A stretch of DNA of 64,000 nucleotides, taken from positions 1 through 64,000 of the forward strand of contig VRMN01000026.1 in NCBI GenBank assembly GCA_008690995.1, read 5' to 3'. Positions 7,025-31,621 of this stretch are shown here, piece by piece. Each line of letters begins with the position of its first letter. The first letter of the stretch is position 1. A program made the translations under genes and the position numbers. The notes beneath the pieces are model-generated. The model made no database searches, was not told the DNA's origin, and worked only from the letters and a program-made list of their open reading frames with translations. The DNA comes from Porphyridium purpureum (lineage: Eukaryota; Rhodophyta; Bangiophyceae; Porphyridiales; Porphyridiaceae).

Positions 7025-7322
7025 CGTGGAATATAGTCATCCCTCTCTGCCTGCCTGATGACGTGATGAGGAGTCATCAAATACTTAATGATGACAACTC
7101 TCCGTTGGTTGGTGACCGTAATGGTTAACCACAGTAGTATATCATTCGAGTGTGAGAGACGGCCGACGAGTCGGCGCTCTGTCTCCTTTGGAGGTAAGAG
7201 CTAGGTTGTGTTAAGGAGTAAAGTCGTCTTGTTGTGGACCTCTTGCTTCAGCTAGCCACCAGTAGTTTACTATTGGTACACGTTTGGTATACGCGTGCTT
7301 CACGAAGACGCTATCATCAAAG
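7025..7322 (+). repeat. Copia 5' LTR
   Basis: Matches the split 3' LTR over 298 bp with one difference. The upstream part has three copies of TGATGAC (one inverted) around 7056-7091, resembling bZIP half-sites, one of them as TGACGTGATG. A weak TATA-like TATATC lies near 7138. A GAG|GTAAGAG splice-donor-like site is at 7191-7200. Confidence 0.95.
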
Positions 7323-12395: not shown

Positions 12396-12699
12396 TGTTA
12401 CCAATGCTGTGCCTTTATTCTCTCTCTCTTCTTCTTCTTTCTTACCTCTTCTGTCTCCGAGCAAGACCTGACCGGCTAGCCCGGGCAGGCGCGTCGCCTT
12501 TTTATACCCTTACTTCCGCCAGGGACAGCAAGGCGCCAAGAGAAATGACAATGCAAATCATTGGCATTTCTGCGCACGTCTAGAAGTTTCCGGAACCTCT
12601 AGAAGCTTCTAGAAACGGTTAAACGGTCTACCGGTTTAACGGCTTACCGGTTTCGGATTAACCGAACCGTTCTAGGTGACTGGGGTCGAACGGATAACA
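12396..12699 (-). repeat. Element 1 LTR, left copy (3' LTR)
   Basis: 304 bp with TG...CA ends and terminal TGTTA/TAACA. Read on the minus strand, it carries AACGG repeats, two heat-shock elements, a CCAAT box, TATAAAAA (12499-12506) and AATAAA near 12414. Confidence 0.95.
12499..12614 (-). promoter_or_regulatory. Heat-shock-type promoter in the gypsy LTR
   Basis: Two perfect three-unit heat-shock elements of the form GAAnnTTCnnGAA lie at 12583-12595 (GAAGTTTCCGGAA) and 12602-12614 (GAAGCTTCTAGAA). They are followed in the element's sense by CCAAT and then TATAAAAA at 12499-12506, about 75 bp away. The arrangement recurs at 30714-30745, 31385-31416 and 36554-36585. In element 2 the variable bases changed but the GAA/TTC triplets did not. 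Confidence 0.75.
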
Positions 12700-12818
12700 T
12701 CTCCCCCCCTCTTGGCTCGACGTCTCGGCGAGACTCCAAACTAAGTTGCATTCTTGGCTCGAGGAACCCGCGCTCCGGGAGAAAACCTCTGCCTAGCAAA
12801 CTTCTCACAATTCCCAAG
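12700..12818 (-). other. Element 1 sequence between pol end and 3' LTR
   Basis: About 120 bp between the pol stop and the left LTR. The LTR-proximal end is TCTCCCCCCC on the plus strand, a G-rich polypurine tract on the element's sense strand. No gene seen. Confidence 0.6.
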
Positions 12819-13285
12819 TCATTCAGAGTCAGACTCCTCGATAATTTTCAACAAGTCTGGCTCAGAATCGGACGCCGGCATTTCGTCGGGTACTTCTTCA
12901 TCATTTTCCCCTACCATGTAGTCTTCGCGTCCATAGTATGGCTTCAGATGCTGGGTCGGAAAAACATCATGACAAGCCACACCCTCGGGCAAAATCACTC
13001 GGTAAGCATGCGAGCTTACCTTCTCAATGACAGGCACCGGACCAAGAAACTTTGGTGCCGCCAAATCACTCTTGTTCGGCCGCAGTTGCGGCGCTGTGAC
13101 CAACACTTGATCACCAACTTGAAACTCCCGGGCATCCTTGCGTCGATCGAAGAACTTCTGCATTCTCCCTTGGGCTTCGATCAAATTGTCGCGGACTTCT
13201 TCATGGACTTTGCACAGGCGAAACCAGTGCTCCGCCACGTCCTTCGTCTGCCCGTCGCGCGCAGGCCTCCACCCTTCGCTCGGTG
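12819..13285 (-). CDS. Element 1 pol, C-terminal part
   Basis: C-terminal end of the element 1 polyprotein, separated from the rest by element 3. It contains the integrase tail with VGDQVLVTAPQL, a GPVPVIEKV segment and HDVFPTQHLKPYY, typical of Ty3/gypsy integrase ends, then an acidic tail. No chromodomain is seen. The matching part of element 2 is at 31622-32080. Confidence 0.9.
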
Positions 13286-13565
13286 TGCTATGCTGTACAC
13301 CCCATGCACTGTACACATGTAGCACCTGTACTCCATAGTACAGTCCACCCTCCAAAACCCCATCCAAACCCACCACTGAGTTAGATCCAGGGCTTTGCGG
13401 CAGTATATAATCCACGCCGCCGTGCGGCCCGAGCTAAACAAAAAGTAAAGGAGGTATCGAAGTGCGAGGAGAGGTTGGTGTGCCGTTGGTGTCGGGGTTC
13501 GATCCGGGCGGGTGCCTGTAGGTGAGAGAGAGGGGTTGTAGTGGCTGCGGGTGTAGTACACAGCA
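13286..13565 (+). repeat. Element 3 5' LTR
   Basis: 280 bp, identical on inspection to 25959-26238. Four GTAC sites lie at 13295-13341, followed by TATATAA at 13404-13410, consistent with a U3 promoter. A GGTTCGATCC box at 13496-13505 resembles a Pol III B box but has no tRNA fold. Confidence 0.95.
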
Positions 13566-13566
13566 T

Positions 13567-13578
13567 AATTCTAGAATT
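13567..13578 (+). other. 12-bp palindrome at the element 3 primer position
   Basis: One base after the 5' LTR lies the perfect palindrome AATTCTAGAATT. No TGG-type tRNA primer site is present there. Element 4 has AATTTGCAAATT at the same relative place (19630-19641). Confidence 0.6.
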
Positions 13579-13706
13579 AGCGTTGCCCCATTCTTGAGTA
13601 ATTTCTTGTGGGAGCGCGCGGGCCGGTCTGGTTGGTGGTCGGGTGGCCCGGAACCAGGGCGACGTGGGGGAGAGGTGCCAGGTCGGGTGGCTCTGGTGTC
13701 TCGTTT

Positions 13707-13998
13707 TGTCACAAACGGAGCTTCTTTTCTTTACTTCTTCTTCTCTCCTCCTCTACCTCCTCTCTTCTTTCTAGCCTTTTTTCTTCGTTCGGCTGCCGCT
13801 CGCTCTGTTTTATACCCGCCTTCCGGCGCCGCAACGGCTTGCCCGGCGGGTTCAGCCCTCGGAATAACCCAATCCCGCGGCCCTCAACATAACTCAGCTG
13901 TACCACACGGTACACCCACAGCTGTACTTTCAGTACACTTAGGGACTGTACCTCTGCGTACTCGCTGTACTGAGACCTGCATCAGGTCGCTCGCGACA
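13707..13998 (-). repeat. Element 4 LTR, left copy (3' LTR)
   Basis: 292 bp. On the element's sense strand a cluster of seven GTAC sites (13900-13970) lies upstream of TATAAAA (13808-13814), followed by a purine-rich tail. Two differences from 19643-19934, both in the pyrimidine tract. Confidence 0.95.
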
Positions 13999-14708
13999 TC
14001 CCACACTTCCCGCTTATCCACAGCGACCATTGCGATAGCGTGTTCTAAGCCCACGCGCCGCATGCATAGCAGCCGTTCCCGTGCCGCTCAACAGGTTCAA
14101 GCACAATGAGCTGAGATCGAGCGGACGAAGTACAGTGTAAGCTGACAGGGTACAGTGCCAGCAACAGGGCCAAAAAAATAAGGTGGCCGGTGCCGCTCAC
14201 AAGTGACGCCCACTGACAAGACCCCGTACAGGCTGCCATCCCCCTCCCCCGCTAACCTTAAAGGAAAGGTGCGCTGTTACGGCTCTGCCCAATGTCACCC
14301 CGGGGAATTACCCTAGCCACGGATCCCCAGCATTTCACAGGGGCAGTTTTCTCTAATCAGGGAGTGTCTAAGATCCTCTTCAATTCTCGTTTGCCAAACT
14401 GCCGAAATTTAGAGTATATACACCCCCAAATATGGACTCAGGTACAGTATTACTGTACTTCACTGTACACAGACTGTACTTCATTTTGTTCTTTATCATT
14501 CGTTCTACCGTCTTGCTGCGGGCACGGCTCCTTCTTTACCGTCCAGCCATGGACACAGCTCCTTCTTTAATGTCCAGCAACGGACACAGCTCCTTCTTTA
14601 TCGTCCAGCAACGGACCCAGCTCCTTCTTTACCGTCCAGCCACGGACACTCCATCTTTATTCGAACATTTTTTTTTTGAGAGCAGCGACGGCCGATAGCC
14701 ACCCAGCG
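13999..14708 (-). other. Element 4 3' untranslated region
   Basis: About 710 bp between pol and the 3' LTR with no gene seen. It has more GTAC sites (around 14129, 14150 and 14442-14482) and a 31-bp tandem repeat. The bases next to the LTR are purine-rich on the sense strand (GCGGGAAGTGTGGGA), a candidate polypurine tract. Confidence 0.6.
14527..14650 (-). repeat. 31-bp tandem repeat, four copies
   Basis: Units begin at 14527, 14558, 14589 and 14620 with GCTCCTTCTTTA and contain GTCCAGC(C/A)A(T/C)GGAC; a decayed fifth start is at about 14648. The GTCC...GGAC core of each unit can pair with itself, so the array could form a row of small hairpins in RNA. Confidence 0.85.
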
Positions 14709-17700
14709 TCAAACACCTTCTGCCATGTCTCGGTACGCGGCTACCAGCATGGGCGGGAGCGTCTTCTCAGCCTCCCATGTGTCGCCTCGCTTCCCCATAC
14801 CCCGCCATCTCACCTTGTACTCGCGGCCTCCACCCGCAGCCCGATCTTCCACAATTGCCTCCACCACCCAACTTGCATCTCCTCCAGCGAACACGTTCGT
14901 GCCGGCCATGTCTACCACGTCCGGGTCTGCCTTGTGCAAGCGGTTCACATGCACGAGCTGGCCATGGAGCTCTGCGTCATCTCGGCCGTTTGCGCTGACC
15001 ACGACTGCGTGAACCCCGTTCCGCTTTGTGATGCGGAAAGGTCCGAGCCACGGCTTTGTCAGCTTGCGACCCTGCCTCGTACTTGGGCACCACACGTATA
15101 CGATGTCGCCTTCGGCAAACGTTTCCTTGTTCCGATGAATGTTTCTGTCATAGTACCTTGCAAACCTCTCGGCGTTCTCCGACATCTTATTCCCGGCGAG
15201 CCGATAGGCGCGCGCCAGCTGTGCGGAGATATCTTGCGGTTGCTGGCCCCCTTCAACCGCTCGCGGTCCGGCCATGCTTGCCCAGTCCTTGGCTGGCGAC
15301 CCAAACATCATTTCGTACGGCGAGAAGCCGGTGGCTGCGTGGCGCGACGTGTTGTACGCGTAGGTTACAACGGACAGCCACCTATCCCAGTCGCGCGAGC
15401 TTGCACTGACGTACGCCGACAGCATCTTGCACAGGGTCGCATTGAAGCGCTCCACCCTTCCGTTCGTCTGCGGGTGGTAGGCTGTCGTCATGAGCCTCCG
15501 GATTCCGAGTCTGGCGCAAAGCGACGTGATCACCTCACCGACAAAGTTTGAGCCCCGGTCGGACAAGATGGACTCCGGCGGGCCAAAGACAGTCAACCAC
15601 GTCTGCAGGAAACTCCGCGCCACGGTCTCTGCCTTCTCGTCCGGGAGCGCCACGGCAACCGCCCATCGCGTCCAAGCATCCATCATGACGAGCACCTTGA
15701 TATTTCCCGTTCGCGTCTCCGGACTGATGGTGAGGATGTCCATGCCTACAATTTCAAAGCGTCTGGACGCCGAGTACTGCACCATCGCCGCGTTCCGGCG
15801 GGGTGGTGGTGCCTTGCGCGCTATGCACTCGTGGCAGCACCGAACGAACTTCCGAACGTCTTCTGTCCACCCGGGCCACCACCACTGCGCGTCGGCTATC
15901 CTCGCCGCCGTCCTCGCCGTCCCCATGTGAGCCGACAGCGGGGCTCCGTGATAGACATTCAGAACTGCCGACACAAGGGCGTCAGGGACCACCCGCCTGG
16001 GCATGTCTTTCAGCAACGCAAACACAATCCCGTCTTCGTCCACGATATACTCAGGGAAGGAGTACTTTGACGCGGGGCCTGATAGGTTCTTGAGCTCAGC
16101 GCAGATCTGCTCGTCCTCTGCGTACGCTGCTCTGAGCTCGTCGTCCGTGGGCACAGCGTATAGCGCCCCACTGTCTTGCGTGTCCCGTACCTCCCGGACC
16201 TCTTCTTCCGTGCCAGTGTCCAGAGGAGTACGCGATAGCGCATCGGCCACGATATTCGCTGCGCCTGGCTTGTGCTTCACGTCAAACTCGAAATCTTGCA
16301 CGCGCATGATCCACCTTGCCGTCCGACCCCGTGGCTCTTTCTGGCGAAGCAGCCACAGCAGCGCCGAGTGATCCGTCACGAGAATGAACTTCTTGCCGAA
16401 CAGATAGTGCCTGAACTTTTCCATGGATAGTATGGCACCCAAGCACTCTTGCTCCGTGACGCTGTAGTTCAGCTCTGCGCCTCGGAATGCCCTTGAGTAA
16501 AAGGCCACCGGGCGCCGCTGGTCCCCTTGAAGCAAGACCGCGCCAATGCCCACCTGGCTCGCGTCGACTTCAAGAACCATCTCGGCGGCCGGATTGAATG
16601 CAACCAGGACTGCGCTACCGTCGTCCATCGGATCACCTAGCGCATGGCGTAGGTCTATGAACGCGGCGCGCTGGTCGTCCCCGAATCTGCTCGCCCACTC
16701 TGCGCCACCAGCCGTCTTCCGGTGGAAGCCACCTTTCTTGTCCGTCAATCCGAGCCCAGTCAGCGCCCGCCTCAGCGGGAGGGCGCGCTCCTCGAAGTTC
16801 GGTATGAAGTTACGAAACCAGCCGACCAGTCCCAGGAACCGCTGCAGGTCCTTCGCTTCTTCTGGCTCTGGCCACTCCAGGATTGCCCGCGTCTTATCTA
16901 CCCCAGGCCGCAAACCTTGCGGGCCAATGCGATGGCCCAGAAACTGTACTTCTGCCAGAGCAATCTTGCACTTGCGGGCCGACAGTGTAAGCCCCGACGC
17001 CGCGAACCTTCGCAAGATCTGACGAAGTCCTTCCACATGTTCCTCGAAGGTCTCATGTCCCACTGTCAGATCGTCAATGTAGATCTGCGCGTGTGCATGG
17101 CGCATAGGGCCCAAAATCCGGTTGTTGAGTCGCTGGAAAGTTGGCGGACTATTGCAGCAGCCCTGCGGCAGACGCGTGTATTCAAATAGCCCCTCACGTG
17201 TGATCATGGCAGTCAAATGCATGCTTTCTGGCGCAAGGGGCACCTGGAAAAACCCGTCCTTGAGATCGAGAGCGCTCTTCCATCGGCGCCTCGAAAGCCA
17301 GTCGAGCATCTCCCCAACGTCTGGGATTGGGTACCTGTCCTTGATTGTGATTGCATTGAGCGGGCGAAAGTCGGTAGTCATCCGATACGATCCATCTGGT
17401 TTCCGGATCAGTACGTTGGCTGCTGCACACTCCGACGTGCTCGGCTGCAGCACTCCCTTAGCGACAAGGGCTTCGACCAGGCTGCGCTCGGCCTCGTTCT
17501 CGGCCTCTGAGCGCCTGCGCACTTTGGCCACCAGAGGGCGCTGGCCCGGTTCGACAGTGATGGTGTGTTCCACCAGGTCCGTCAATCCCATGGACGGCCT
17601 GAACAGCACCCACGCCTCAGCTAGGACGTCGCCGACTCGTTTGCGCTGCTCGGGCTCGAGATGCCCAAGCTCGATGGCCGCGGCGTTGCGCAGGGCTTCC

Positions 17701-18317
17701 TCTTTCTCGGCCGCGTGCTTCTGCTCCAGCTGGGCGATTCGACGATCAATCTCGCCCGGTTCTTCAAGATGACCGATGTGTTCTGGGCCCGGCAGACCAC
17801 TCACTTGCTCGAACGGTAGAGAACCTCCACGCTTGAAGAACACAGCTTGACCTGGCAGCACGGCCGCGACTTCTCGAACCTGGAAGTCCCAGCCGATCAA
17901 GAGATCTGTCTTGAGGTGTTCCGCCACTCGGACCGTCTCGCACGGAAAAACGAAAGACCCGAGATGCAGATCCAGAAACCCAACGCTGACTCTGCCCAAG
18001 GAGGCGCCGTCCGGCCCTCGCGCTCCCCAACTTGACGGCTGCGTTTTCAAGCCGAGCCGGTCAGCCACGCTCGGGCTCACCCATGTTGAGTTTGCGCCCG
18101 TGTCCAGAACTGCCAGTGCAACCACTGCCTGGCCACATGCGGTGAGCTTCACCCGCAACGTCGGACTGTTGTCCGCACGCACGGCTAGCTCCGAGTCGCC
18201 GTCTTGTTCCTTGGCGTACGCCGCGCCTTGCAACTCTGCCTCACCTGAGGCATCGCCCGGCTCCCACCATTCCATGCAGGGGGCAGCTACTGCTTGCTGC
18301 CCCACTGCCCGTTTTTT
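14709..18317 (-). CDS. Element 4 pol (protease, RT, RNase H, integrase, chromodomain)
   Basis: Read from the recoding site at 18311-18317, about 1200 codons. Order seen: aspartic protease VLDTGANSTWVS; reverse transcriptase with TTDFRPLNAI and YIDD; RNase H with TDHSALLWLL; integrase with an HHCC zinc motif and the D, D, E core (QTNGRVERFNATL); a C-terminal chromodomain (YKVRWRG...DTWEAEKTL). Reverse transcriptase before integrase marks Ty3/gypsy and the chromodomain marks a chromovirus, a group thought to target marked chromatin. Confidence 0.93.
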   Translation of the reverse strand, partial: KKRAVGQQAVAAPCMEWWEPGDASGEAELQGAAYAKEQDGDSELAVRADNSPTLRVKLTACGQAVVALAVLDTGANSTWVSPSVADRLGLKTQPSSWGARGPDGASLGRVSVGFLDLHLGSFVFPCETVRVAEHLKTDLLIGWDFQVREVAAVLPGQAVFFKRGGSLPFEQVSGLPGPEHIGHLEEPGEIDRRIAQLEQKHAAEKEEALRNAAAIELGHLEPEQRKRVGDVLAEAWVLFRPSMGLTDLVEHTITVEPGQRPLVAKVRRRSEAENEAERSLVEALVAKGVLQPSTSECAAANVLIRKPDGSYRMTTDFRPLNAITIKDRYPIPDVGEMLDWLSRRRWKSALDLKDGFFQVPLAPESMHLTAMITREGLFEYTRLPQGCCNSPPTFQRLNNRILGPMRHAHAQIYIDDLTVGHETFEEHVEGLRQILRRFAASGLTLSARKCKIALAEVQFLGHRIGPQGLRPGVDKTRAILEWPEPEEAKDLQRFLGLVGWFRNFIPNFEERALPLRRALTGLGLTDKKGGFHRKTAGGAEWASRFGDDQRAAFIDLRHALGDPMDDGSAVLVAFNPAAEMVLEVDASQVGIGAVLLQGDQRRPVAFYSRAFRGAELNYSVTEQECLGAILSMEKFRHYLFGKKFILVTDHSALLWLLRQKEPRGRTARWIMRVQDFEFDVKHKPGAANIVADALSRTPLDTGTEEEVREVRDTQDSGALYAVPTDDELRAAYAEDEQICAELKNLSGPASKYSFPEYIVDEDGIVFALLKDMPRRVVPDALVSAVLNVYHGAPLSAHMGTARTAARIADAQWWWPGWTEDVRKFVRCCHECIARKAPPPRRNAAMVQYSASRRFEIVGMDILTISPETRTGNIKVLVMMDAWTRWAVAVALPDEKAETVARSFLQTWLTVFGPPESILSDRGSNFVGEVITSLCARLGIRRLMTTAYHPQTNGRVERFNATLCKMLSAYVSASSRDWDRWLSVVTYAYNTSRHAATGFSPYEMMFGSPAKDWASMAGPRAVEGGQQPQDISAQLARAYRLAGNKMSENAERFARYYDRNIHRNKETFAEGDIVYVWCPSTRQGRKLTKPWLGPFRITKRNGVHAVVVSANGRDDAELHGQLVHVNRLHKADPDVVDMAGTNVFAGGDASWVVEAIVEDRAAGGGREYKVRWRGMGKRGDTWEAEKTLPPMLVAAYRDMAEGV
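18280..18317 (-). promoter_or_regulatory. Programmed -1 frameshift signal, element 4
   Basis: Sense-strand order: heptamer A-AAA-AAC (18311-18317) in the gag frame, a 7-nt spacer (18304-18310), then a perfect 8-bp stem GGGGCAGC/GCTGCCCC with an 8-nt loop (18280-18303). Gag and pol are in a -1 relation here. This is the classical retroviral layout. Confidence 0.85.
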
Positions 18318-19585
18318 GGTCCGTGGCTCAAGCCACCGTCCGAATACGGCGCGCGTGGTGCTCCACCTTGGCCCGCGGGGCGATGCACTCCCCCATCGGC
18401 CCTTGGCCATCCATTGCGGCAATCCCTCTTCAAGTGTCCAAGTTCGCCGCACTGCCAGCACTGCGGCTGTCCGGGCAGAGCAGTCGGAAGGGCTTGGCGC
18501 TTGGCCTGTGGCCCAAAGCTCTCAACCTGGTATACATCCTCTGCGTACAGGCCGTAGTCACGACCGCGCTTCTGGATCGTCGTGCCCGGGACCTCGCCTA
18601 TGCGGCCCACTCTCTCGCGGCCAAGCGGGCGTTGCTGGCCAAACGGAGGAAGCGAGCGACTCGGTAGACCCTTCAAACCATCTTCACCGACGTGGTCTAC
18701 CAGAGCTGAGCGCAGCTTGGTGAACGAGACGCTCACGCCGATCATGCGGACCGTGTTCTTCAAGAACGCGGAGTCCATGGCTTCGATCAACACGTCCTTC
18801 TTGTCCTCGTCGTCCATCTTGAGCCCGTCAGCCTTGGTCTCCAGGTCGTTCAGAAAGACACTCAAGCTGGCTTTCCCCGGTTGGAACTTCATGCGGCGGA
18901 GCTCGGCTTTCAAAGCCTGGCGGTGCTCGACATTGAAAAACATGGACTCCAGTGCCTTCCACACACGGTTCGCTGCGCCGGGCCCTGCCGCATCGACATC
19001 TTTGATCACGGCTTGGTACCTTGACACCGCGGGCCCACCAAAGCAAGCGCTGATGTGCTCCGCGACATTGTCCCTTGCGAGGCCAAGTGTGTCCGCGTGC
19101 GACTCCCAGCAGGTACGCGACGCGAAGAAATGAGCGTCACCTGGGGCCTTGATAAGAACTTGAGCACTGCGGACCGCCTCGCGAAAGGTTGCTGCGAGCT
19201 TCAACTGCTCCTCCCAGAACGACCGATCCGTGGTACGGCCCGAGGTCTGCGCCGAGTTGCGGCTGTGCGCCTGGGCCTCCAGTTCAGCAACGCGAGCGCG
19301 AAGGGCCATCACTTCGGCTCCGCCCGGTGCAGCTAGGTCTCCAACCGGGACAACGGACTCTGCGTCGGCTGCGGCTTCCAGGTGACCTGGCGTCCCCTGC
19401 TCATTGTCGACAGCTTCACCCTGGTGCTCCACGACAGGCCCGTCTTCTGGCGCTGGGCCCCCGGCACGAGCGGCCCCTGCTTCGATGATCGCGGATCCGC
19501 TGCGTGGCTCCCCAAGTCCTGCCACAACTGCTGCCTCGCGAGGCCCACCTGCCTCTCCAACTCCTGCCCCACGCCCACGCGCCAT
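18287..19585 (-). CDS. Element 4 gag
   Basis: About 432 residues from the ATG at 19583-19585. The first part is Gly/Ala/Glu-rich, the middle is a Retrotrans_gag-like helical region, and the C-terminus has one zinc knuckle CWQCGELGHLKRDC (CX2CX4HX4C). The end overlaps pol by about 30 bases around the recoding signal. Confidence 0.88.
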   Translation of the reverse strand: MARGRGAGVGEAGGPREAAVVAGLGEPRSGSAIIEAGAARAGGPAPEDGPVVEHQGEAVDNEQGTPGHLEAAADAESVVPVGDLAAPGGAEVMALRARVAELEAQAHSRNSAQTSGRTTDRSFWEEQLKLAATFREAVRSAQVLIKAPGDAHFFASRTCWESHADTLGLARDNVAEHISACFGGPAVSRYQAVIKDVDAAGPGAANRVWKALESMFFNVEHRQALKAELRRMKFQPGKASLSVFLNDLETKADGLKMDDEDKKDVLIEAMDSAFLKNTVRMIGVSVSFTKLRSALVDHVGEDGLKGLPSRSLPPFGQQRPLGRERVGRIGEVPGTTIQKRGRDYGLYAEDVYQVESFGPQAKRQALPTALPGQPQCWQCGELGHLKRDCRNGWPRADGGVHRPAGQGGAPRAPYSDGGLSHGPKNGQWGSKQ

Positions 19586-19629
19586 CCTATCCCACTCCCA
19601 ACCCCACACTTCCTCGCTCCCACACGACC

Positions 19630-19641
19630 AATTTGCAAATT
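19630..19641 (-). other. 12-bp palindrome at the element 4 primer position
   Basis: AATTTGCAAATT lies one base inside the 5' LTR of element 4, mirroring 13567-13578 of element 3. Just beyond it (sense strand) is TGGTCGTGTGGGAG, which could instead be a displaced tRNA primer site. Confidence 0.55.
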
Positions 19642-19642
19642 A

Positions 19643-19934
19643 TGTCACAAACGGAGCTTCTTTTCTTTACTTCTTCTTCTCTCCTCCTCTACCTACTCTC
19701 TTCTTCCTAGCCTTTTTTCTTCGTTCGGCTGCCGCTCGCTCTGTTTTATACCCGCCTTCCGGCGCCGCAACGGCTTGCCCGGCGGGTTCAGCCCTCGGAA
19801 TAACCCAATCCCGCGGCCCTCAACATAACTCAGCTGTACCACACGGTACACCCACAGCTGTACTTTCAGTACACTTAGGGACTGTACCTCTGCGTACTCG
19901 CTGTACTGAGACCTGCATCAGGTCGCTCGCGACA
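19643..19934 (-). repeat. Element 4 LTR, right copy (5' LTR)
   Basis: 292 bp, partner of 13707-13998 with two differences. Flanked on the outside by the GTTT duplication at 19935-19938. Confidence 0.95.
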
Positions 19935-19938
19935 GTTT

Positions 19939-20066
19939 GAAGTCGGGTGGCTTTGAAAAGATAGTTCTGTTTGGTTTTTGAACTTGCGTGGGAAGCCGGG
20001 TGGCTTCAGCACACGCATTGCACACTTTTGCGTTTGATTTCTAGGGACTGACTGATTATCTGATTT
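19939..20066 (+). other. Element 3 5' leader, second part
   Basis: Untranslated leader between element 4 and element 3 gag. It has two copies of a T/C-CGGGTGGC motif; two more lie in the first part of the leader (13566-13702). No open frame of note. Confidence 0.6.
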
Positions 20067-21278
20067 ATGTCCGGACGCCTGTCGGATATCTTGGGGGAAA
20101 TGGCCGGGCGTCCAACTGTAGCGAGCGTCACGGCTGATGTGGCGGCACTCCAGGGACGTGTAGAGCTGATCGCATCCGGCCAGGAGCAGCTGCGCGAAAG
20201 CATTGACCAGATACGTCAGAGAATGGAGATGATCTTTCAGCGTCTCGGACCGCAGCTGGACGAACCGACGATTGCGGACGCGCAGGATCGCGGTTCTCGG
20301 CCAAGATCCGCCGAACATGGTGCCGAGCCACCGGGGGAGCCCAGCCGCGCGTCCAGAATCGGGACTGCACTGGCGGTCTCTGATGGTTCGAGCCTGTTGA
20401 CAATGTCCACTGAGGAGCTCCGGCTCATCAAACTCGAGCAAGAAATGAAGAGGTCGGTCATTCTCGAGATGAAAGACTGTCGCATCCGTCACGCGCGTGA
20501 TCTCAGGTTCGAAACCACGTATTTGACCTGGGTGGAAGCATGTCGCCACATTCCAGCCGACCTCACGGCAAAGTTTGTGGTTCTAGCTTTTGCGGATTCG
20601 GCTGAGCAGGTTTATCGCACTGCCGAGAAGAACGGCGAGCTTGCGACGGAGTACTCGGCTCAGCAGCGTTGGGCGTGGGCGCGTTCGGTTTTCTGGTCTC
20701 CTCAGCTTTTGGAATCTGTGGAACAAGAGTACTGCGAGAGGAAATGGACGAAGGGCGAGTCAGTGGCAAACTATCACCGCGCCGTGTACGAGCTCGGCGC
20801 TGCTCTTGGGAAATCCGAGGCGTCGATGAAGAGCGACTTTGTTCGAGGACTTCCTCGAGATATTCAACAGATGGGTCGTCTCCACGCTGCCACAGAAACA
20901 TTCTTCGGAATGATTTTACCGTTGGAGAAAAACTACGGGTCGACACTGGAGAAGGGACGAAGCTTTGCCCAAGGGAGACCGGTTTTCCGTCCACCGGGGG
21001 CTGCGGTCAATGTACTTCATGATTCCGAACCAAATCTTGGGGGTGTACCTCCTGACCCGGCGAAGGAGACAGAGGATCAAAAGTTGATCGAAGTGGAGTT
21101 CCTGGCGGACCGGGTGGCAGCCGTTTTGGGCGTGCCCGGAATCGGGGGGAACCGTTTAATGGCCAACTCGGATCGAGTGGTGTGTCGCCGCTGCCAAGGG
21201 ACAGGACACTATGCCGGAGACTGCCTGGCGCCAGCACCGGTGCGCAGAGCTACCTCGGCGGCGCCTGCGAGCGAGTGA
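20067..21278 (+). CDS. Element 3 gag
   Basis: 403 residues from the ATG at 20067. N-terminal helical/coiled region, central Retrotrans_gag-like region, C-terminal zinc knuckle CRRCQGTGHYAGDC. The UGA at its end is directly followed by CUA, and pol continues in the same frame. Confidence 0.88.
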   Translation: MSGRLSDILGEMAGRPTVASVTADVAALQGRVELIASGQEQLRESIDQIRQRMEMIFQRLGPQLDEPTIADAQDRGSRPRSAEHGAEPPGEPSRASRIGTALAVSDGSSLLTMSTEELRLIKLEQEMKRSVILEMKDCRIRHARDLRFETTYLTWVEACRHIPADLTAKFVVLAFADSAEQVYRTAEKNGELATEYSAQQRWAWARSVFWSPQLLESVEQEYCERKWTKGESVANYHRAVYELGAALGKSEASMKSDFVRGLPRDIQQMGRLHAATETFFGMILPLEKNYGSTLEKGRSFAQGRPVFRPPGAAVNVLHDSEPNLGGVPPDPAKETEDQKLIEVEFLADRVAAVLGVPGIGGNRLMANSDRVVCRRCQGTGHYAGDCLAPAPVRRATSAAPASE

Positions 21279-21281
21279 CTA
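21276..21281 (+). promoter_or_regulatory. Probable stop-codon read-through signal between gag and pol
   Basis: UGA-CUA at 21276-21281 in a shared gag/pol frame. UGA-CUA is a recognised read-through context in viral genes, and gag-pol read-through is established for gammaretroviruses. Elements 1, 2 and 4 instead use a -1 shift. Confidence 0.6.
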
Positions 21282-24200
21282 CGCGGACGCGTGGTAGCGT
21301 GGAATGGGAGGGCCGTGGATGAGGCCATGGAAGCGTTGGGATATCGCAAGCCCAGCGTAGGTGAAGAGAACACCGAAATTCGAACAAGTTCCGTGATTGG
21401 TGATCTAGCTCTCGGGCCGAAGCGAATCCTGCGAGCGAGTCCAACCTTGGAAGTCTTAAACCATCTGGTGGAATCTGCTTCTGGCAGAGTCCCGTACGTG
21501 CGCGTGTTGGCCAAAGCACGTGTCATGCGATCGGGTCGCACGCCTGTCAAGGTCTCGGGATCTGCCGTAGATGCTCTTGCCGACACGGGTGCTGTAGGGA
21601 TTGCCGGTGTATATGCGCGAGCAAAGTGGGTCAGTTCTCTAGGAGCCGTAATACAGGACGTGGCGCAGGAGTGTCGAACTGCAGGCGGAAGCTCCCTCGG
21701 TATTGTCGGAGCATCAGAGCTTCAGCTACAAATTGGCCAGTCAATGTACCAGGTGCGCGCATTAGTTGCCGAAGATCTTATCGAAGATCTTATCCTGGGA
21801 TGGGATTTCTGGGTTGCTAATGCTAACGCGCTTTCCTTTGGCAAGGGCGAGCTCGAAATGAAAGACGGCGCCACGATTCGCCTCTTAGAGGGAGCGCCTG
21901 CAAAATCACTGAACTTAATTGATTGCGTTGGGGTAGAGCAAAGAGACGCAAGTAAGCTCGGGAGTCCAAACGTAATGCAAGAGGACGAAGAGGAGACGCG
22001 TGCTCGCATTATGGATGTAGACCTCAGCCACGTAGACGTGCTTCACCAAAGTGGTCTTCGGGCGGTGTTGCTCAAGCACTGGAGGGTGTTCCGGGACCGT
22101 CCAGGTCGCACACGGTCTACTGAGCACTCCATTGCTATTGATCCAGGCGCACGTCTTACCCCGGCCCGCCTGCGTAGATTGTCTGAAGTTGAAAGAGAGG
22201 CCGAGAGCACGCTAGTCCAGCGTTTATTATCTTTGGGCATCCTCGAGCCTTGCTCGGGCCCATATGCCAGCGCGAACGTTATCATTCGAAAGCCAAACGG
22301 TAAGTGGCGGCTGACTACGGATTTCCGCCAATTGAACAGCCACACCGTTCCAGATAGATACCCAATCCCTGACGTGCGCGAATGCTTAGATTGGATGGGA
22401 CGCTTCCTCCCGTGTGGAGTCTTCTCTGTGATGGACCTGGCTGACGGTTTCTTCCAAGTTCCCCTCGCGGAGTCCTCGCGGGACTTCACCGGTATGATAA
22501 CGGCGGAGGGACTGTTCCGCTACACAGTCCTTGCACAGGGCCTCCGAAACTCGCCCGCTACCTTCCAGAGACTTGTGAACACGATACTTGGGTCGCTTCG
22601 ATGGAAACACATCCTGATGTACATAGACGATATGTTGACAGGGACCAAAACGATAGAAAAACATTTGGAGGTCCTAGACGTAGTGCTAAGCAAGTTCCAG
22701 GAAGAGAACATGACATTTTCCCTTCAAAAGTGCAAATTCGCTACGGCAAGGCTCAGTTTCCTGGGACATGAAGTGGAAGAAGGCCGCATTCGGCCGGGGG
22801 GAAAAAGTACGGCAGCCATTCTCAAGTGGCCTTACCCTAAGGGCCCAACAGAGCTGCTGCGTTTCTTAGGGCTTGTGAATTGGTTCAGGGACTTCATACC
22901 CAGGTTCTCGGATCGCGCGGCGCCGCTCCGGAGAGCGCTGGATGGCTTGGACGTCAATGCAAAGAAGGCACACCGCAATACGGATCTAGAGTGCGCCGGC
23001 TGGCAGGCACGCTTTGGGGAAGACGCGCGCTGCGCTTTCGACGGATTCAAAGAGGTGCTCACGTCGGACAAAGTGATGCTGGTGTTGGCGGATCCGAACG
23101 CGCCAAAGGTTCTCGACACCGACGCCTCTCAGATAGGACTGGGCGGTGCGTTGTATCAGGAGATGCCGGACGGGAAGCTTGCGCCAATCTCTTTTTTGTC
23201 GCGGACTTTGACGTCGGCGGAGCAAAATTATACGGTCACCGAGCTGGAGTGCCTTGCAGTAGTTTGGTGTCTCAAAAAGGTACGACACTATGTTTTCGGC
23301 ACAACCGTACGCATTCGCACTGACCATGAACCTCTCCGTTGGCTCCTGTCCATGAAAGAGCCAAGAGGAAGGCTGGCGCGCTGGGCACTGACAATTCAGG
23401 ACTTTTCGTTTACCATCGAGCATGTTAAAGGCCGCTTGAATCGAGTGCCGGACGCACTGTCACGTCTCGAACTGAACGCAGTGCGCACGCGTGCGCGACG
23501 AGATCCCGTCGCAGAGGATTCTGCAGTACCGACAGATGAAGATGATCCGCACGCGATTGGTCAAGCCGTGGGCTACGAGCTCCCATCTCCGGAGAGGCTC
23601 AAGGCAGCGTACAGGGAGGACGAGCTGCTATCGAAAGAGCTCGCGGCATTGCAAAAGTCCCCACGAGTATATTCCTATCCGGAGTACTATCTGGACGAAA
23701 GTGGACTTGCGTGGGCCGCGCTGAAAGACAAACCGCGCAAGGTAGTCCCTGATGGACTAGTGGGCAGTATTTTAGATGTCTACCACTCAGCACCTTTCAG
23801 CGGGCATTTCGGAGTGTCCAAGACGGCGGCACGTATATCCGACGCGGAGTTTTGGTGGCCTGGCTGGCTGCAAGACGTCTTGGAGTTCGTAAAGCAATGT
23901 AGAACTTGCGCCGCGCGAAAGGGCTCACCGACCCCTGTCACAAGCCACCGCATGGGAAAGCGGGTCGTTACCCGGCGGTTCGAGGTCGTTGCTGCGGACG
24001 TTTTAACGGTAACGCCGAGAACAAGCACTGGATACTCAAAAATCCTGGTAGTGAGCGACCTTTTCACTCGGTTCACCATAGCAATATGTGTGCGAGACGA
24101 GCGGGCAGAGACCATTGCCGAGGCTTTTTTGGATCGTTGGGCTGCAATCTTTGGCCTACCGGAAGCTCTTCTGAGCGACAACGGGCCCTGTTTTCGAGCC

Positions 24201-25076
24201 GATGTTCTACGCCAGTTATGCAAGATGCTGCGCGTTAGAAAGCTGTTTACGACAGCGTACAACCCACAAGCCAACGGGGCGGTCGAACGCTTTAACAGGA
24301 CACTCTGCGACATGCTTTCTTCGTGGGTCACGGAGGACGATTGGGATTTGTGGTTGCCTGCCTGTGTGGCCGCGTTCAACCAGACTAGACACAGCACGAC
24401 GCAGAGGACGCCTTACGAGCTCATGTTCGGACGAGAGGCCAATTCATGGCTGGGACCCTTCAACCCGGCCGCCGAAGGGGAAGTAGCGCCACAAGACAGC
24501 GCAAGAAAGGAGGACGCCTTTGTGATTCTGTTGCGCAACAGGCTCGAGGCCTTGCACAACGCAGTAGTTGAAAATGATGCCACCCGGGACGCCCGACGTC
24601 GAGAGCTTAACGCGTCATGTCGAATTGTTGACGTTGAACCGGGGGACTGTGTGTTCGTTTGGAAGCCGCCGCTGGGCAGGGAGGGCCGAAAGCTGGCGGA
24701 CCCTTGGGTAGGCCCTTTTGAAGTTGAGCGTGCTGACGAGCATCGCGCATGGCTCAAGACGCATGACGGCAAAGAATTCTTCGTGCATCGCCGACGGCTG
24801 AAGAGAGTGGACCGAGCGCTACTGAGCAACGATACATTGCGCTCGACCAGCCTGGGAAACGCCGACGGTGACATCGTTGAGGTGTCAGGTCTGAAAGCCA
24901 GGCGCGAACGGAGCGACGGGGCCGAGTATCTTGTGGCTTGGAAGGGGGCAAGGAAGAAGGACTGGACGTGGGAAAGTTCCTCTGCCCTGCCGCCGGCCCT
25001 TGTGTGGGCGTTCAACCGCGGCAGCTTGCACCGCGGCACTGCATTGCGATCCACGTCGGGCGAGAGCTTTCTATAG
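21279..25076 (+). CDS. Element 3 pol (protease, RT, RNase H, integrase, chromodomain)
   Basis: About 1265 codons in frame with gag. Order seen: protease-like LADTGAVGIAG; reverse transcriptase with TTDFRQLNSHT and MYIDDMLTG; RNase H with TDHEPLRWLL; integrase zinc motif (H...H...CRTCAARK) and core with QANGAVERFNRTL; C-terminal chromodomain (EYLVAWKG...WTWESSSALP). Clearly related to element 4 pol across the reverse transcriptase, but too diverged to be the same family. Confidence 0.93.
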   Translation, partial: LRGRVVAWNGRAVDEAMEALGYRKPSVGEENTEIRTSSVIGDLALGPKRILRASPTLEVLNHLVESASGRVPYVRVLAKARVMRSGRTPVKVSGSAVDALADTGAVGIAGVYARAKWVSSLGAVIQDVAQECRTAGGSSLGIVGASELQLQIGQSMYQVRALVAEDLIEDLILGWDFWVANANALSFGKGELEMKDGATIRLLEGAPAKSLNLIDCVGVEQRDASKLGSPNVMQEDEEETRARIMDVDLSHVDVLHQSGLRAVLLKHWRVFRDRPGRTRSTEHSIAIDPGARLTPARLRRLSEVEREAESTLVQRLLSLGILEPCSGPYASANVIIRKPNGKWRLTTDFRQLNSHTVPDRYPIPDVRECLDWMGRFLPCGVFSVMDLADGFFQVPLAESSRDFTGMITAEGLFRYTVLAQGLRNSPATFQRLVNTILGSLRWKHILMYIDDMLTGTKTIEKHLEVLDVVLSKFQEENMTFSLQKCKFATARLSFLGHEVEEGRIRPGGKSTAAILKWPYPKGPTELLRFLGLVNWFRDFIPRFSDRAAPLRRALDGLDVNAKKAHRNTDLECAGWQARFGEDARCAFDGFKEVLTSDKVMLVLADPNAPKVLDTDASQIGLGGALYQEMPDGKLAPISFLSRTLTSAEQNYTVTELECLAVVWCLKKVRHYVFGTTVRIRTDHEPLRWLLSMKEPRGRLARWALTIQDFSFTIEHVKGRLNRVPDALSRLELNAVRTRARRDPVAEDSAVPTDEDDPHAIGQAVGYELPSPERLKAAYREDELLSKELAALQKSPRVYSYPEYYLDESGLAWAALKDKPRKVVPDGLVGSILDVYHSAPFSGHFGVSKTAARISDAEFWWPGWLQDVLEFVKQCRTCAARKGSPTPVTSHRMGKRVVTRRFEVVAADVLTVTPRTSTGYSKILVVSDLFTRFTIAICVRDERAETIAEAFLDRWAAIFGLPEALLSDNGPCFRADVLRQLCKMLRVRKLFTTAYNPQANGAVERFNRTLCDMLSSWVTEDDWDLWLPACVAAFNQTRHSTTQRTPYELMFGREANSWLGPFNPAAEGEVAPQDSARKEDAFVILLRNRLEALHNAVVENDATRDARRRELNASCRIVDVEPGDCVFVWKPPLGREGRKLADPWVGPFEVERADEHRAWLKTHDGKEFFVHRRRLKRVDRALLSNDTLRSTSLGNADGDIVEVSGLKARRERSDGAEYLVAWKGARKKDWTWESSSALPPALVWAFNRGSLHRGTALRSTSGESFL

Positions 25077-25958
25077 TCGGTCCGGGCCGCCGGCGTGTGG
25101 CAAGAGCCTCGGCCTCCTTTCGCGCTGCCTCTCTATCCTTCCCGACCTTCGACTGTGAGAAAGGCGGAGGCTCATCCGTTTATCCGTTTATCCGTTTATC
25201 CGTTTATCCGTTTATCCGTTTATCCGTTTATCCGTTTATCCGTTTATCCGTTTATCCGTTTATCCGTTTATCCGTTTATCCGTTTATCCGTTTATCCGTT
25301 TATCCGTTTATCCGTTTATCCGTTTATCCGTATCGGCGTATCGGCGTATCGGCGTATCGGCGTATCGGCTCACAGGGTGGGTACAGTGAGGATATGGTGT
25401 TGAGAGGCAGGCGGTGTCAACGGATGAGCAACGAGTGTCTGGAGGTTCCAGGGCGAGAGAAGCTCTGCTTTGGTGATGACTGGCTTCGTGGGCCTCATCT
25501 AGGTTACAATATTGCATTTCGCGCACTTTCGCCGCGTCGTTTGGCCGCAAATCAGGAATTTCTGTTCATGGTGGGTCGGCAAATGTTGCACATCGCCGAG
25601 GTTTCCGCAAGCGCCCTCCCTCGCGGGAAAAGGCTTCAATCAACTCCTCTTGAGTGTTGCTTGAGCCTGCACCTCTATCTCGGAACCTTGGATCACCGGA
25701 ATGTGCTCGTCTGGAGTCGGCACCAGAAAACCGAAAACTCACGGGGAAGAGGTACACAGACGCCGCCGCGTACACCCGGGTCGCATGGGTTTTCCGTCGT
25801 TCACAATATTTTTTGCTTGTTTGGGGCTGGCCGGCGGTCGTTTTCCGCGACCCCTTTGCCCGGTTTCCCGCGTGGTTTTCCTCCGGGCTAGCCAGCCTCC
25901 CTTTCCTCTCTTCCCGGTCCCCGAGCGCGCACAAGCGGTTGAGGCGGTGGGGGAGATG
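25077..25958 (+). other. Element 3 3' untranslated region
   Basis: About 880 bp between pol and the 3' LTR, without a convincing gene. It contains an 8-bp repeat array (25174-25365) and ends in the G-rich tract GGTGGGGGAGA that should act as the polypurine primer. An open frame on the minus strand here is a run-on of element 1 pol through the LTR and is not meaningful. Confidence 0.65.
25174..25365 (+). repeat. 8-bp tandem repeat array (24 units)
   Basis: Nineteen exact copies of ATCCGTTT (25174-25325), one hybrid ATCCGTAT, then four copies of CGGCGTAT (25334-25365). No spacers, so not CRISPR. On the minus strand each main unit carries AACGG, a Myb-type core. Confidence 0.97.
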
Positions 25959-26238
25959 TGCTATGCTGTACACCCCATGCACTGTACACATGTAGCACCT
26001 GTACTCCATAGTACAGTCCACCCTCCAAAACCCCATCCAAACCCACCACTGAGTTAGATCCAGGGCTTTGCGGCAGTATATAATCCACGCCGCCGTGCGG
26101 CCCGAGCTAAACAAAAAGTAAAGGAGGTATCGAAGTGCGAGGAGAGGTTGGTGTGCCGTTGGTGTCGGGGTTCGATCCGGGCGGGTGCCTGTAGGTGAGA
26201 GAGAGGGGTTGTAGTGGCTGCGGGTGTAGTACACAGCA
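25959..26238 (+). repeat. Element 3 3' LTR
   Basis: 280 bp, identical on inspection to 13286-13565. Followed by the GGTG duplication at 26239-26242, where element 1 pol sequence resumes. Confidence 0.95.
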
Positions 26239-29174
26239 GGTGGAAACCAAGGATCCCTTCCATACACCACTTTGAATGGCGCGAATCCAGTGGCACTGCT
26301 TGGTGCAGAGTTGTACGCAAACTCGTACAACGGCAAGTCTCGCACCCAGCCACTATTCGTCGCCATCAACTTGAGCATTTCCCGAATCACGCGGTTCACT
26401 CGCTCAGTTTGGCCATCAGTTTGCGGATGGTTGGCGGTAGACATAGCCAACTTCATACCCACCCGCTTGCTCAACTGCTGCCAAAACGTGGACGTAAACA
26501 GCGGATCTCGGTCCGATACAATTGACTTGGGGTATCCGAAACGGCTCACGACGTGCTTCACGAACAAGTCAGCACAACGCTTTGCTGTCAAGTCCTTGCG
26601 CGTCGGGATGAACAGCGCCATCTTCGAATAGCGATCCACCACAGTCATGATTGCATCACAGCTGCCTTCGCTCCGAGGCAGCTCCGTCACAAAGTCCATC
26701 GAAATGTCGACCCAAGGTCCTTCTGGGATCGACAAGGGCTTCAGCTTTCCAAACGACCGATTCTCTGACTTTGTCACTTGGCATGCGTGACAAGTCTTCA
26801 CAAAACGGCTCACGTCTCGCTTCATCTTTGGCCAGTAGAAGCGAGTGATCAAAGATGCATACGTTGTGTCGGCTCCACGGTGCCCTGCTGTCGGGATATC
26901 GTGTTGGAGTTGCATGACACGCTCTCTGAACTTCCTCGGCACGCAAACGCGATTCCTCAAGTACAAGAGCCCAGCTTCGGTTCGAAAACCTTGGTGGGTC
27001 GGTAAATCCCCCATCAAAGTACCAAAGTCCGGGTCACTCGAGTACGAACCCACGAATGCTTGGAAACCCGCACCAAATTCATCACATCGAACTTGGTACT
27101 CTAGCGCATGTAACTCCGGCTTTCTCGACAAAGCATCGGCTACCACGTTCGACTTTCCCTTCACATAGTCGATTGTGATATCAAACTCGGCTAAAACGTC
27201 CAGCCACCGTGCTTGCCGGCCATTCAGCTCCTTCTGCGTCATCAAATGTTTCAACGCCTCATGATCTGTATGAAGCACAAACTTTGCCCCGTACAGATAA
27301 GGTCGAAACTCTCGCAGACAGTGAATGACGGCCATGAGCTCACCTTCATAGCTGCTGTACCTGGTCTCTCGGTCCAGCAGCTTCCTTGACGTAAACGCGA
27401 CCGGTCTGCCTTCCTGTGCCAGCCATCCCCCCACCGCGACTTCGGAGCGGTCTGTGTACACCTCAAATGGCTTTTCAGGGTCTGGCAAGGCCAACACCGG
27501 CGCTTCCGTCAACATCCCGACAATCTTCTTGAAGGCCGACTTGCCTTCATCTCCCAGTTCGATCAGCTGCTTCTTCGACTTTGCGTGCTGCAACAGCGAA
27601 GTCAGCGGCGCCACCACGGTAGAGTATCCTTTGACAAACCTGCGAAACCAGTTTGTCATTCCCAAAAAGGATCTCAACTCCGTCACCGTCTTTGGCACTG
27701 GCCAATCTCTCAAAGCTTCCACCTTCCGTGGATCCATCTTCACGCAACCGTTGCCGACAATGTTCCCCAGGTATTCGACTTCAGAAACGAAGAAGCTGCA
27801 CTTCTTGCGCTTCAAACGATACCCCGCCTTTTGCAAGCGCGACAACACTTCCTTCAGGACCTCGCCGTGCGACTGCCTATCCTTCGTAAAGACCAAAATA
27901 TCGTCCAAGTAGACAATGACGGTCTTGTCCAGCAGATCTGCAAACAGCTCGTTCATGGCCCTCTGGAAAGTTGCCGGCGCGTTGCAAAGACCAAACGGCA
28001 TCACACGGAACTCGAACTGTCCGTACCTGGTCTGGAACGCGGTCTTCGGCACGTCCTCTCTCCGAACACGCAACTGGTGGTATCCCGATGCCAAATCCAA
28101 CTTTGAGAAACAGTGAGCTGCTCCCAGTCGATCCAGCAACTCATCCATGTTCGGCAACGGATACCGGTCCTTCACAGTTGCGTCGTTCAACGCCCGATAA
28201 TCAACGCACATCCTCATGCTGCCGTCTTTCTTCTTCACGAACAGCACGGGTGCTCCAAACGGGCTCTGACTCGGCTGGACGAATCCTTTGTCCAGCAAGT
28301 CATCCAAAGTCTCTCGGAGGACTTTCAACTCCGCAGGGCTCAGTCGGTAGACCCTGCCCACTCTCACAGGCTTCTCATCTTTCAGCCTAATCACATGCTC
28401 CACTGTTCGGCTCTCAGGCAGCCCTCGTGGCTCCTCGAACAGATTTTCGAAATCCTTGAGCATCTTTCTCACAGAGTCAGCGTCTTTGCGCTCCACTGAA
28501 CAGGGCTCCTCCCTTCCTTTCAGCACGCCGAGGTAGCACTCTTCTACCTCCTGACTCTTCAACAGCCGACGGAGCTCTTTCCGCGGCACCAGCATCTGCG
28601 TCATGCTCCAGGCCTTCTTCTCTCCGTAGGCCAACATGCCAGACTGCCAATCAATCACTGGGTTCTCCCGCTTCAGCCACTCCATGCCCAGAATTGCGTC
28701 TTGTCCCGCAATCCGGCAAATGGCAAAGTTAGCGGCCCCTGAGTACCCATCGCTCAGTTCAAACTTGACATTGGAGACTTCTCCGGCTGTTTCCAATACA
28801 GACCCATCCGCTAGGGTCACATGATCTCTCTTCCACGACGCCTTCTGCTTCAGGCCGTCGGATTTCAGCACAAAGTCCACGCTCATAAAGTTGTCCGTCG
28901 CACCACTGTCAATCAAAAACGTGGCCTCTCCATCGGACTTGTGCACTTTTCCTCGAACTCGAAGAAGCATGGCAGCTCCCATCCCTCCAAGTTCCTTGAT
29001 CACGGGCTGATTTGCGCTCGAGTTTCGCCCACAAGGTGTCGGACAGCCAGACCTTGGCTTACCAAGGCCACCACAGCGGTCTCCATTGCCGCCCCTAGAG
29101 GTCTCGTAACGTCTGCGAGCCTCCTTTCCCTCTGACTGTCCGAGGAACCTTTCTACTCGAGCTCCTCGTTTTTT
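26239..29174 (-). CDS. Element 1 pol, main part
   Basis: Protease (LIDSGATDNFMS near 28905), reverse transcriptase with YLDDILVF near 27900, RNase H with TDHEALKHL, integrase HHCC (HRGAD...CHACQVTKS) and the DDE core (NHPQTDGQTERVNRV). Entered from gag by a -1 shift at 29168-29174. The C-terminus continues at 12819-13285 on the far side of element 3. Nearly identical to element 2 pol. Confidence 0.92.
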
Positions 29175-29959
29175 GACTCCAGCGAGTCTCCCTCCAGCTG
29201 GTGGATAGTCTTCCTTGCCTCGGGACACTTCCTCGCGATGTGTCCCGGCCTTCCACAATTCCAGCATTTGAGCTCGGTACGAACACGCCTCTGACCCTGC
29301 ACATGTCCCAGCTCCATCGGGACAGGTCCTTCCTGCGCTGCACGACCGAAAAATGGCGCCCTCACACTTGAATCACGCACGCCGCGGGTCGCATGAATGG
29401 CGTCGTCCACGACCACCGCCACCTGCGCAGCCTCCGCGAACGTACTCACTCCTCGCTTGTACACTTCCAAGCGCACCTCGGGCTTCAGACCCCTCACAAA
29501 GCGGTCCATCATTTCTGCGTCCGACAAGTCCGGAATCACAAGTGCCGCGTCCTGAAAAGCCGCCACATACGCATGGGCCGGGCCTTTCTGCGAAAGACGC
29601 GTCAACTTGTCCCTTGCACGCCTGATCGAATCCTGCGGCGTGAACCGAGCACTCACGAGGGCAGCAAAATCATTCCACGTCGTGGGGATCTCCTGCGGGT
29701 AGCGTTCGCAGTTTAGAACCCACCAATGAAGCGCCTCTCCCTCGAAGTAGTCTGATGCCAAGTCCACAGCACGCCTCTCCGCAAGCAGACGTTTCTCCAA
29801 ATCGTCCGGGTGGATGCTCTCCAACAACCGGCCCAAGATCTTCTTTCTCGCCTGGAACAACCACGTCTTCACAACCAGAAGGTCACGCTTCCCGTCGAAC
29901 TTCATCAGACGGGCCTCCTTCGGGCCACGTGGTCCCAGCGTCTCCGAATCAATCTCCAT
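29153..29959 (-). CDS. Element 1 gag
   Basis: 268 residues from the ATG at 29957-29959. Retrotrans_gag-like helical core (WWVLNCERYPQ, TRLSQKGPAHAYV) and one zinc knuckle CWNCGRPGHIARKC. The end overlaps pol, with the slippery heptamer just before the gag stop. Confidence 0.9.
   Translation of the reverse strand: MEIDSETLGPRGPKEARLMKFDGKRDLLVVKTWLFQARKKILGRLLESIHPDDLEKRLLAERRAVDLASDYFEGEALHWWVLNCERYPQEIPTTWNDFAALVSARFTPQDSIRRARDKLTRLSQKGPAHAYVAAFQDAALVIPDLSDAEMMDRFVRGLKPEVRLEVYKRGVSTFAEAAQVAVVVDDAIHATRGVRDSSVRAPFFGRAAQEGPVPMELGHVQGQRRVRTELKCWNCGRPGHIARKCPEARKTIHQLEGDSLESKNEELE
29168..29174 (-). promoter_or_regulatory. Programmed -1 frameshift heptamer, element 1
   Basis: A-AAA-AAC on the sense strand, in the gag frame, with pol in the -1 frame. 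The bases after it can form a short CGAGGA/TCCTCG stem. Element 2 has the same heptamer at 35014-35020. Confidence 0.8.
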
Positions 29960-30507: not shown

Positions 30508-30524
30508 AACCAGCGATGATACCA
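30508..30524 (-). other. Primer binding site, element 1
   Basis: On the sense strand, two bases after the 5' LTR, reads TGGTATCATCGCTGGTT. Starting with TGG it fits a tRNA 3' CCA end. The implied tRNA has U72, expected for initiator tRNA-Met with its A1:U72 pair, so initiator tRNA-Met is the best guess. Confidence 0.7.
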
Positions 30525-30526
30525 AA

Positions 30527-31501: not shown

Positions 31502-31621
31502 CCTCCCCCCCCTCTTGGCTCGACGTCTCGGCGAGACTCCAAACTAAGTTGCATTCTTGGCTCGAGGAACCCGCGCTCCGGGAAAAAACCTCTGCCTAGC
31601 AAACATCTCACAATTCCCAAG

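Follow-up and report, generated by a model that had tools for sequence, protein, structure and literature searches.

Does the LTR of a retrotransposon in a red alga act as a heat-shock promoter? The question is raised by a stretch of Porphyridium purpureum DNA, i.e. the first 64,000 nucleotides of contig VRMN01000026.1 (hereafter the window), in which a preliminary description had placed perfect heat-shock elements (HSEs) in the LTRs of a Ty3/gypsy family, here called family 1. Judging from the sequence of the window and of the genome around it, we consider it likely that the LTR of this Ty3/gypsy family serves as a heat-shock promoter.

Nested elements and the HSE pair of family 1

By employing repeat and self-BLAST maps of the window, the nesting of its LTR elements was mapped. 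A copia-type element by domain order (7025-36865, plus strand), whose RVT_2 match falls below the Pfam cut-off, is the host of two insertions of one Ty3/gypsy family, namely family 1. The LTR of this host element lies at 7025-7322, and its 3' LTR is made up of 31101-31208 plus 36670-36865. Element 1 spans 12396-30830 on the minus strand, interrupted at 13284-26238 by a nested LTR element with 282-bp identical end repeats, which itself contains a further element at 13704-19934. The 304-bp LTR at 12396-12699 (TGTTATCC...GGTAACA), the 3' LTR in the sense orientation, is 100% identical to the 5' LTR at 30526-30830, and the target duplication is TGCAT. Gag of element 1 is found at 29153-29974, and its Pol lies in an open frame at 25566-29267, the distal end of which enters the LTR of the nested element (25957-26238); all of these features are on the minus strand. 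Element 2, also on the minus strand, spans 31209-36670, with its 3' LTR at 31209-31501, its 5' LTR at 36372-36670 and the target duplication GTGGT. Its Gag, with a zinc knuckle, occupies 34999-35826, and its Pol (31622-35113) comprises aspartyl protease, RVT_1, RNase H, zinc-binding and core integrase domains and SH3_Tf2-1. Two further observations were made inside the nested material: a Ty3 element distinct from family 1 (14709-18461, minus strand), which has a C-terminal chromodomain and is nested two levels deep within 13704-19934, and an exact 8-bp tandem repeat array at 25174-25331.

The Pol domain order RVP-RT-RNaseH-INT (31622-35113) is that of Ty3/gypsy, and the closest proteins to Pol, 99% and 92% identical, are from Porphyridium purpureum, so that the assignment to a Ty3/gypsy family of a red alga was borne out. 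Family-1 LTRs have the ends TGTTATC...TAACA, the 5' LTR is followed by TTTGGTATC(A/G)TCGCTGG as PBS, and the 3' LTR is preceded by CAAGAGGGGGGGAGA (AAGAGGGGGGGGAGG in element 2) as PPT. Despite SH3_Tf2-1, there was no Chromo match in the element 2 Pol that would make the family a chromovirus, and the Ty1/copia Pol order, as expected for the family of ONSEN (ATCOPIA78), is absent from family 1. A search of a plasmid collection gave no match. The same genome harbors a sister Ty3 family (P0005 type), whose Pol is 71-72% identical over the shared region and 81% over RT-integrase. Its LTR differs from that of family 1: the part read, a partial U3, has TATATAAAGG and no HSE, and the genome search for the HSE pair found none at the sister-family copy at C11:1795297. 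Between a PBS-like stretch and Gag of this sister family (C11:1794000-1794500) there is a run of approximately 20-bp repeats (CTGTGTGGCTCGTTGATTGC).

Two perfect HSEs of three units each, 6 bp apart, were found in all four family-1 LTR copies (12583-12614, 30714-30745, 31385-31416 and 36554-36585). In the first copy these are HSE 1 (12602-12614, sense TTCTAGAAGCTTC) and HSE 2 (12583-12595, sense TTCCGGAAACTTC), both on the minus strand, as are CCAAT at 12560-12564 and TATAAAA at 12500-12506 (AGGGTATAAAAAGGCG). In the sense of the LTR, the HSE pair takes up positions 86-117, CCAAT begins at position 136 and TATAAAA at position 194, 76 bp past HSE 2. Since both gypsy elements are situated on the minus strand, the HSE pair, CCAAT and TATAAAA, which in the first copy run through 12614-12583, 12564-12560 and 12506-12500 in plus coordinates, stand in promoter order. 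The motif GAANNTTCNNGAA occurs eight times in the window, always inside the four LTR copies, against 0.56 expected from 100 dinucleotide shuffles (largest count 2). The number of sites and the placement upstream of CCAAT and TATA thus agree exactly with the preliminary description. No HSE was found in the other three LTR families of the window, where the best three units have 2, 4 and 3 mismatches.

The four LTR copies do not amount to four independent cases, as they descend from one young family. Neither are HSE 1 and HSE 2 independent of each other, being head-to-tail copies of one 19-bp unit with 15 of 19 positions identical in element 1 and 16 of 19 in element 2. A further 19-bp duplication appears in the element with LTRs at C11:598716-599035 and 603907-604222, both of which have a third tandem HSE. 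It had been argued that several filler bases had changed with every GAA/TTC triplet kept. The triplets are indeed intact, but just two filler bases differ between HSE 1 and HSE 2, the probability of both falling in fillers is 0.18, and conservation matching that of the HSE extends over much of the LTR, so that this argument is weak and fails to support selection on the triplets.

A dense inverted repeat such as this one, with its palindromic TTCTAGAA/GAAGCTTC repeats, might also serve some other protein or nucleic-acid step, e.g. another transcription factor, the integrase or packaging. However, the motif precedes the TATA box within U3 and is remote from the LTR ends, from PBS and from PPT, and the same triplets at the same spacing recur before the TATA box of a second LTR family (see below), which together make a role of this kind very improbable.

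Family 1 across the genome

The scan of the genome for the motif pair in other family members, which the preliminary description had proposed, was run on the assembly of 22.16 Mb in 46 contigs. It returned 93 + 65 = 158 matches to the HSE pair, with LTRs bearing three HSEs counted twice, and none to the reversed pattern, which excludes chance as the source of the pair genome-wide. When as many as 3 mismatches were allowed, the TATA region by itself gave 76 + 103 = 179 matches and 0 in the control. Retention of the pair was scored on the 100 TATA places listed with 0-1 mismatch, 97 of which are on C1-C33, where the list of HSEs is complete. The pair was present at the expected distance in 88 of these 97 and missing from nine, one of which is so close to the end of its contig that the HSEs would lie beyond it, leaving a denominator of 96. 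Accordingly, both HSEs are kept in 88 of the 96 assessable TATA-anchored LTRs, in which older LTRs are under-represented owing to the limit of 0-1 mismatch, and at least one HSE is kept in 95 of the 96. The eight pair-less LTRs were read by eye; seven retain a single perfect HSE, while in the eighth both are broken, and the lesions are mostly single substitutions, with one deletion. Loss of the triplets from most other copies, which the preliminary description took as evidence against its proposal, is thus not seen among the assessable copies.

A different sampling gave a similar picture. All 30 LTRs picked by overall similarity, out of 40 places scored and with the query itself accounting for two, had the pair. 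When another 35 copies, mostly selected by pattern, are added (leaving out a 30-bp second piece of one LTR match, at C1:110737), the pair is present in 65 out of 65, but the triplet invariance of this larger set is built in, as some of its members were picked for having the pair, and the unbiased figure remains 88 of 96. Conservation among copies was also considered as a sign of selection, and this was rejected: when a mask of the 18 triplet positions was slid along the LTR, 53% of 151 outside places were as intact as the HSEs in 88 of 96 LTRs, i.e. conservation among copies is not higher in the HSE than elsewhere in the LTR. As the family is young, conservation among its copies is no proof of selection.

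These findings bear on a possible founder effect, by which an HSE that arose by chance in the founder LTR would have been duplicated by slippage and then carried without function in a young family. HSE conservation that equals that of much of the LTR would suit such an origin, as would the descent of all copies from what amounts to one genealogical event, and the existence of private triplet lesions (8 of 96). What speaks against it is the rarity by chance of a perfect three-unit HSE, 0.56 per 64 kb by shuffling.

Recent movement of the family was assessed in 22 elements, comprising 20 picked for an HSE pair in both LTRs and the two elements of the window. The two LTRs are without mismatch in 12 of the 22, of which 10 are also gap-free, and exact 5-bp target duplications flank 17 of the 22. 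Furthermore, a solo LTR at C11:582272 adjoins the leader and the Gag of an element of the sister Ty3 family. An exchange of LTRs between the two Ty3 families was considered here and rejected in favor of a solo LTR insertion, as GTTAT flanks the LTR at either end and this position is uninterrupted in another sister-element copy, which represents the empty site. Mismatch-free LTR pairs, target duplications and the empty site together indicate that family 1 has moved recently. Spread in itself requires no heat, however, and any young family, whatever its promoter, would present the same picture.

Two less regular configurations were also encountered. At C2:249347-259941 and C3:361409-371945, three family-1 LTRs occur in a row approximately 5.16 kb apart, as if tandem elements shared LTRs. 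At C1:1273921 (C1:1273700-1274100) there is a diverged fragment of a family-1 U3 with both HSEs intact. Its similarity to U3 is confined to two stretches within the first 121 bp (81-85%), while the rest is unrelated and includes neither the LTR TATA nor the downstream part; the fragment may possibly be a decayed LTR, part of another LTR family or a co-opted enhancer.

HSF and the heat-shock promoters of the host

One HSF gene was found in the genome. Its DNA-binding domain is intact (E 6.4e-31), and its open frame has 542 codons, or 538 residues counted from the first ATG. The protein matches solved HSF1 structures over residues 111-183, including the recognition helix, and the stretch FVRQLN-YGFRKV is common to both.

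The preliminary description had also proposed that HSP promoters be searched for the motif. Upstream regions were collected from 18 loci, namely HSF, five HSP70-type, eight HSP20 and four HSP90 genes; a fifth HSP90 was excluded as its start lies 48 bases from the end of the locus, and the locus L037 is a second fragment of L036. The regions reach up to 800 bp from assumed starts, which were guessed from open frames with introns ignored. Perfect HSEs were found in 3 of the 18 regions, or 2 of 15 when near-identical copies are counted once, and shuffled upstream regions gave a mean of 0.12 with a perfect HSE, only 3 out of 400 shuffles reaching 2. An HSP20 copy on C2 has a one-mismatch HSE, a perfect HSE and then, 59 bp past the perfect one, TATAAA (GGGTATAAA), and its near-identical HSP20 counterpart on C43 shares this perfect HSE, at an equal distance from the start. 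The promoter of this small HSP thereby has the same layout of HSE followed by TATA as the family-1 LTR. The other perfect HSE lies between an HSP70 gene and a ClpB-type gene on the opposite strand. No perfect HSE was found in the remaining 13 of the 15 independent heat-shock-related regions, including those of the putative cytosolic HSP70 and HSP90, and the HSE code of this alga is for that reason only partly anchored.

In the favored reading, heat or other proteotoxic stress would cause the HSF of the alga to trimerise, the trimer would bind the neighboring HSEs of the U3 pair, each of three units, and bound HSF would drive transcription from the TATA box, which lies 76 bp past HSE 2. Full-length RNA would then be packaged and reverse-transcribed, giving rise to bursts of insertion tied to stress, presumably to the advantage of the element. 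The double HSE would have arisen from a single one by 19-bp tandem duplication, with one branch reaching three. Binding by HSF, heat induction and stress-linked movement are here suggested by general HSE biology and by analogy with ONSEN. A variant is that HSF uses the LTR sites for basal expression, or for expression under other stresses such as light, salt, oxidative or nutrient stress, and not specifically for heat. Both HSF and HSEs are present, the type of stress is left unspecified by the sequence, and the many young copies would suit activation that is frequent and not only rare. The host regions with a perfect HSE nevertheless belong to heat-shock genes (HSP20 and HSP70/ClpB-type), and we regard a role detached from heat as unlikely, though the least so of the alternatives weighed here.

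A second HSE-bearing LTR family and its relation to known systems

A second family first came to notice through a perfect HSE of four units in the sequence flanking one LTR locus. The genome was then searched for GAANNTTCNNGAANNTTC in the GAA-first register, which gave 32 sites, each counted on both strands, and 4 for the reversed pattern. Many of the sites are paired approximately 6.19 kb apart. When the stretch with the four-unit HSE was used in a DNA search, 35 places were obtained, of which 33 are LTR-like and two are fragments of 72-74 bp. The perfect four-unit HSE is present in 31 of the 33 second-family LTRs, as compared by eye with the remaining two unread, and a single one of the 32 sites falls outside these LTRs, in a sequence that can be read as protein. 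The HSE precedes TATAAAA in GGGTATAAAAAG by 54 bp in the two copies that were read. Apart from the HSE and the TATA region, the LTRs of the two families share no similarity other than matches of 8-23 bp.

Relatives of the second family on C17 and C28 have LTRs 81% identical to the query, in which 12 of 12 triplet bases are kept and 3 of 6 filler bases differ (P = 0.025). In these relatives a copia-type RT (RVT_2) ends 832 bp before the LTR in the sense orientation. No RVT_2 match was found inside the main second-family copies among the 150 of 223 candidates scored. The second family is probably Ty1/copia, and its main branch could be non-autonomous. At C43:4569748 and C45:926430, a family-1 LTR adjoins a second-family element, in both cases 72 bp before the 3' LTR of the latter, which would mean either that one insertion site was used repeatedly or that a nested pair was copied.

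The founder effect is further weakened by this second family, as two LTR families of one genome have strong HSEs, 76 and 54 bp before GGGTATAAAAAG. In addition, changes common to several elements are all located in fillers, three in family 1 and three between the second-family lineages, and none in triplets; the probability of six out of six (0.0024) is post hoc, with the family-1 copies partly selected and the two HSE-less second-family LTRs unread. Functionless inheritance from a founder thus appears quite improbable. The best reading of the sequences is instead that of HSF-driven, heat-induced LTR promoters acquired twice, in which a second LTR family, unrelated outside the HSE and TATA region, would have gained a four-unit HSE above a near-identical TATA box, and both families probably wake when the cell is heated. 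More tentatively, and with slightly less than even confidence, we propose that a Ty3/gypsy and a probable Ty1/copia lineage have come under HSF control independently, converging on a dense HSE placed 54-76 bp before GGGTATAAAAAG, a plan also used by the small-HSP gene of the host. That two HSE-bearing families with different LTRs share one layout in one genome goes beyond the preliminary description and is the more interesting part.

HSE-bearing LTR elements are already known (ONSEN, TCN3), and other heat-induced elements include DIRS-1 of Dictyostelium and MAGGY of Magnaporthe. PMC5059998 describes HSE-bearing LTRs in ONSEN and other Brassicaceae copia families, and a high-affinity HSF-type site in the ONSEN LTR that was built by duplication of a proto-HRE. 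According to PMC3907296, HSFA2 binds the ONSEN LTR, and heat induction requires HSFs and is lost in HSF mutants. ONSEN (ATCOPIA78, Arabidopsis) resembles family 1 in its HSF-type LTR sites and in their duplication. It differs in being a Ty1/copia element of a land plant with demonstrated heat induction, whereas family 1 is a Ty3/gypsy family of a red alga for which induction is predicted. Closer in kind is TCN3 of Cryptococcus neoformans, described in PMC12810828. This element likewise belongs to Ty3/gypsy, its LTR holds two HSEs that its authors call putative, and, as in family 1, there are 5-bp target duplications as well as solo LTRs; it inserts at 37 C with no insertions at 30 C. TCN3 is fungal and its temperature-linked insertion was measured, whereas that of family 1 is inferred. 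HSEs, with HSF-1 binding, are also carried by Caenorhabditis Helitrons (PMC6927752); these are DNA transposons, unlike the LTR element described here. Heat-induced Ty3/gypsy elements are tabulated for conifers and other plants in PMC9780303. The preliminary description regarded a heat-driven Ty3/gypsy family in a red alga as new. Among the titles and abstract openings screened in the open-licence PMC literature, no HSE-bearing LTR element from a red alga was reported, which agrees with this claim as regards red algae, but neither HSE-bearing Ty3/gypsy elements (TCN3) nor heat-induced ones (in plants) are new as such.

If HSF control of the two lineages is real, heat would mobilise both families together. 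The genome would then hold between one and two hundred LTRs as a dispersed store of strong HSEs, including 31 of the 32 GAANNTTCNNGAANNTTC sites, able to bring host genes under heat control. Capture of HSF by LTR elements would not be peculiar to the copia elements of land plants but would have a separate origin in red algae, with two such events in one small genome, and its standing as a general route of retrotransposon activation would become testable. A unicell with a genome of 22 Mb, in which one HSF gene was found, offers a simple setting for this question.
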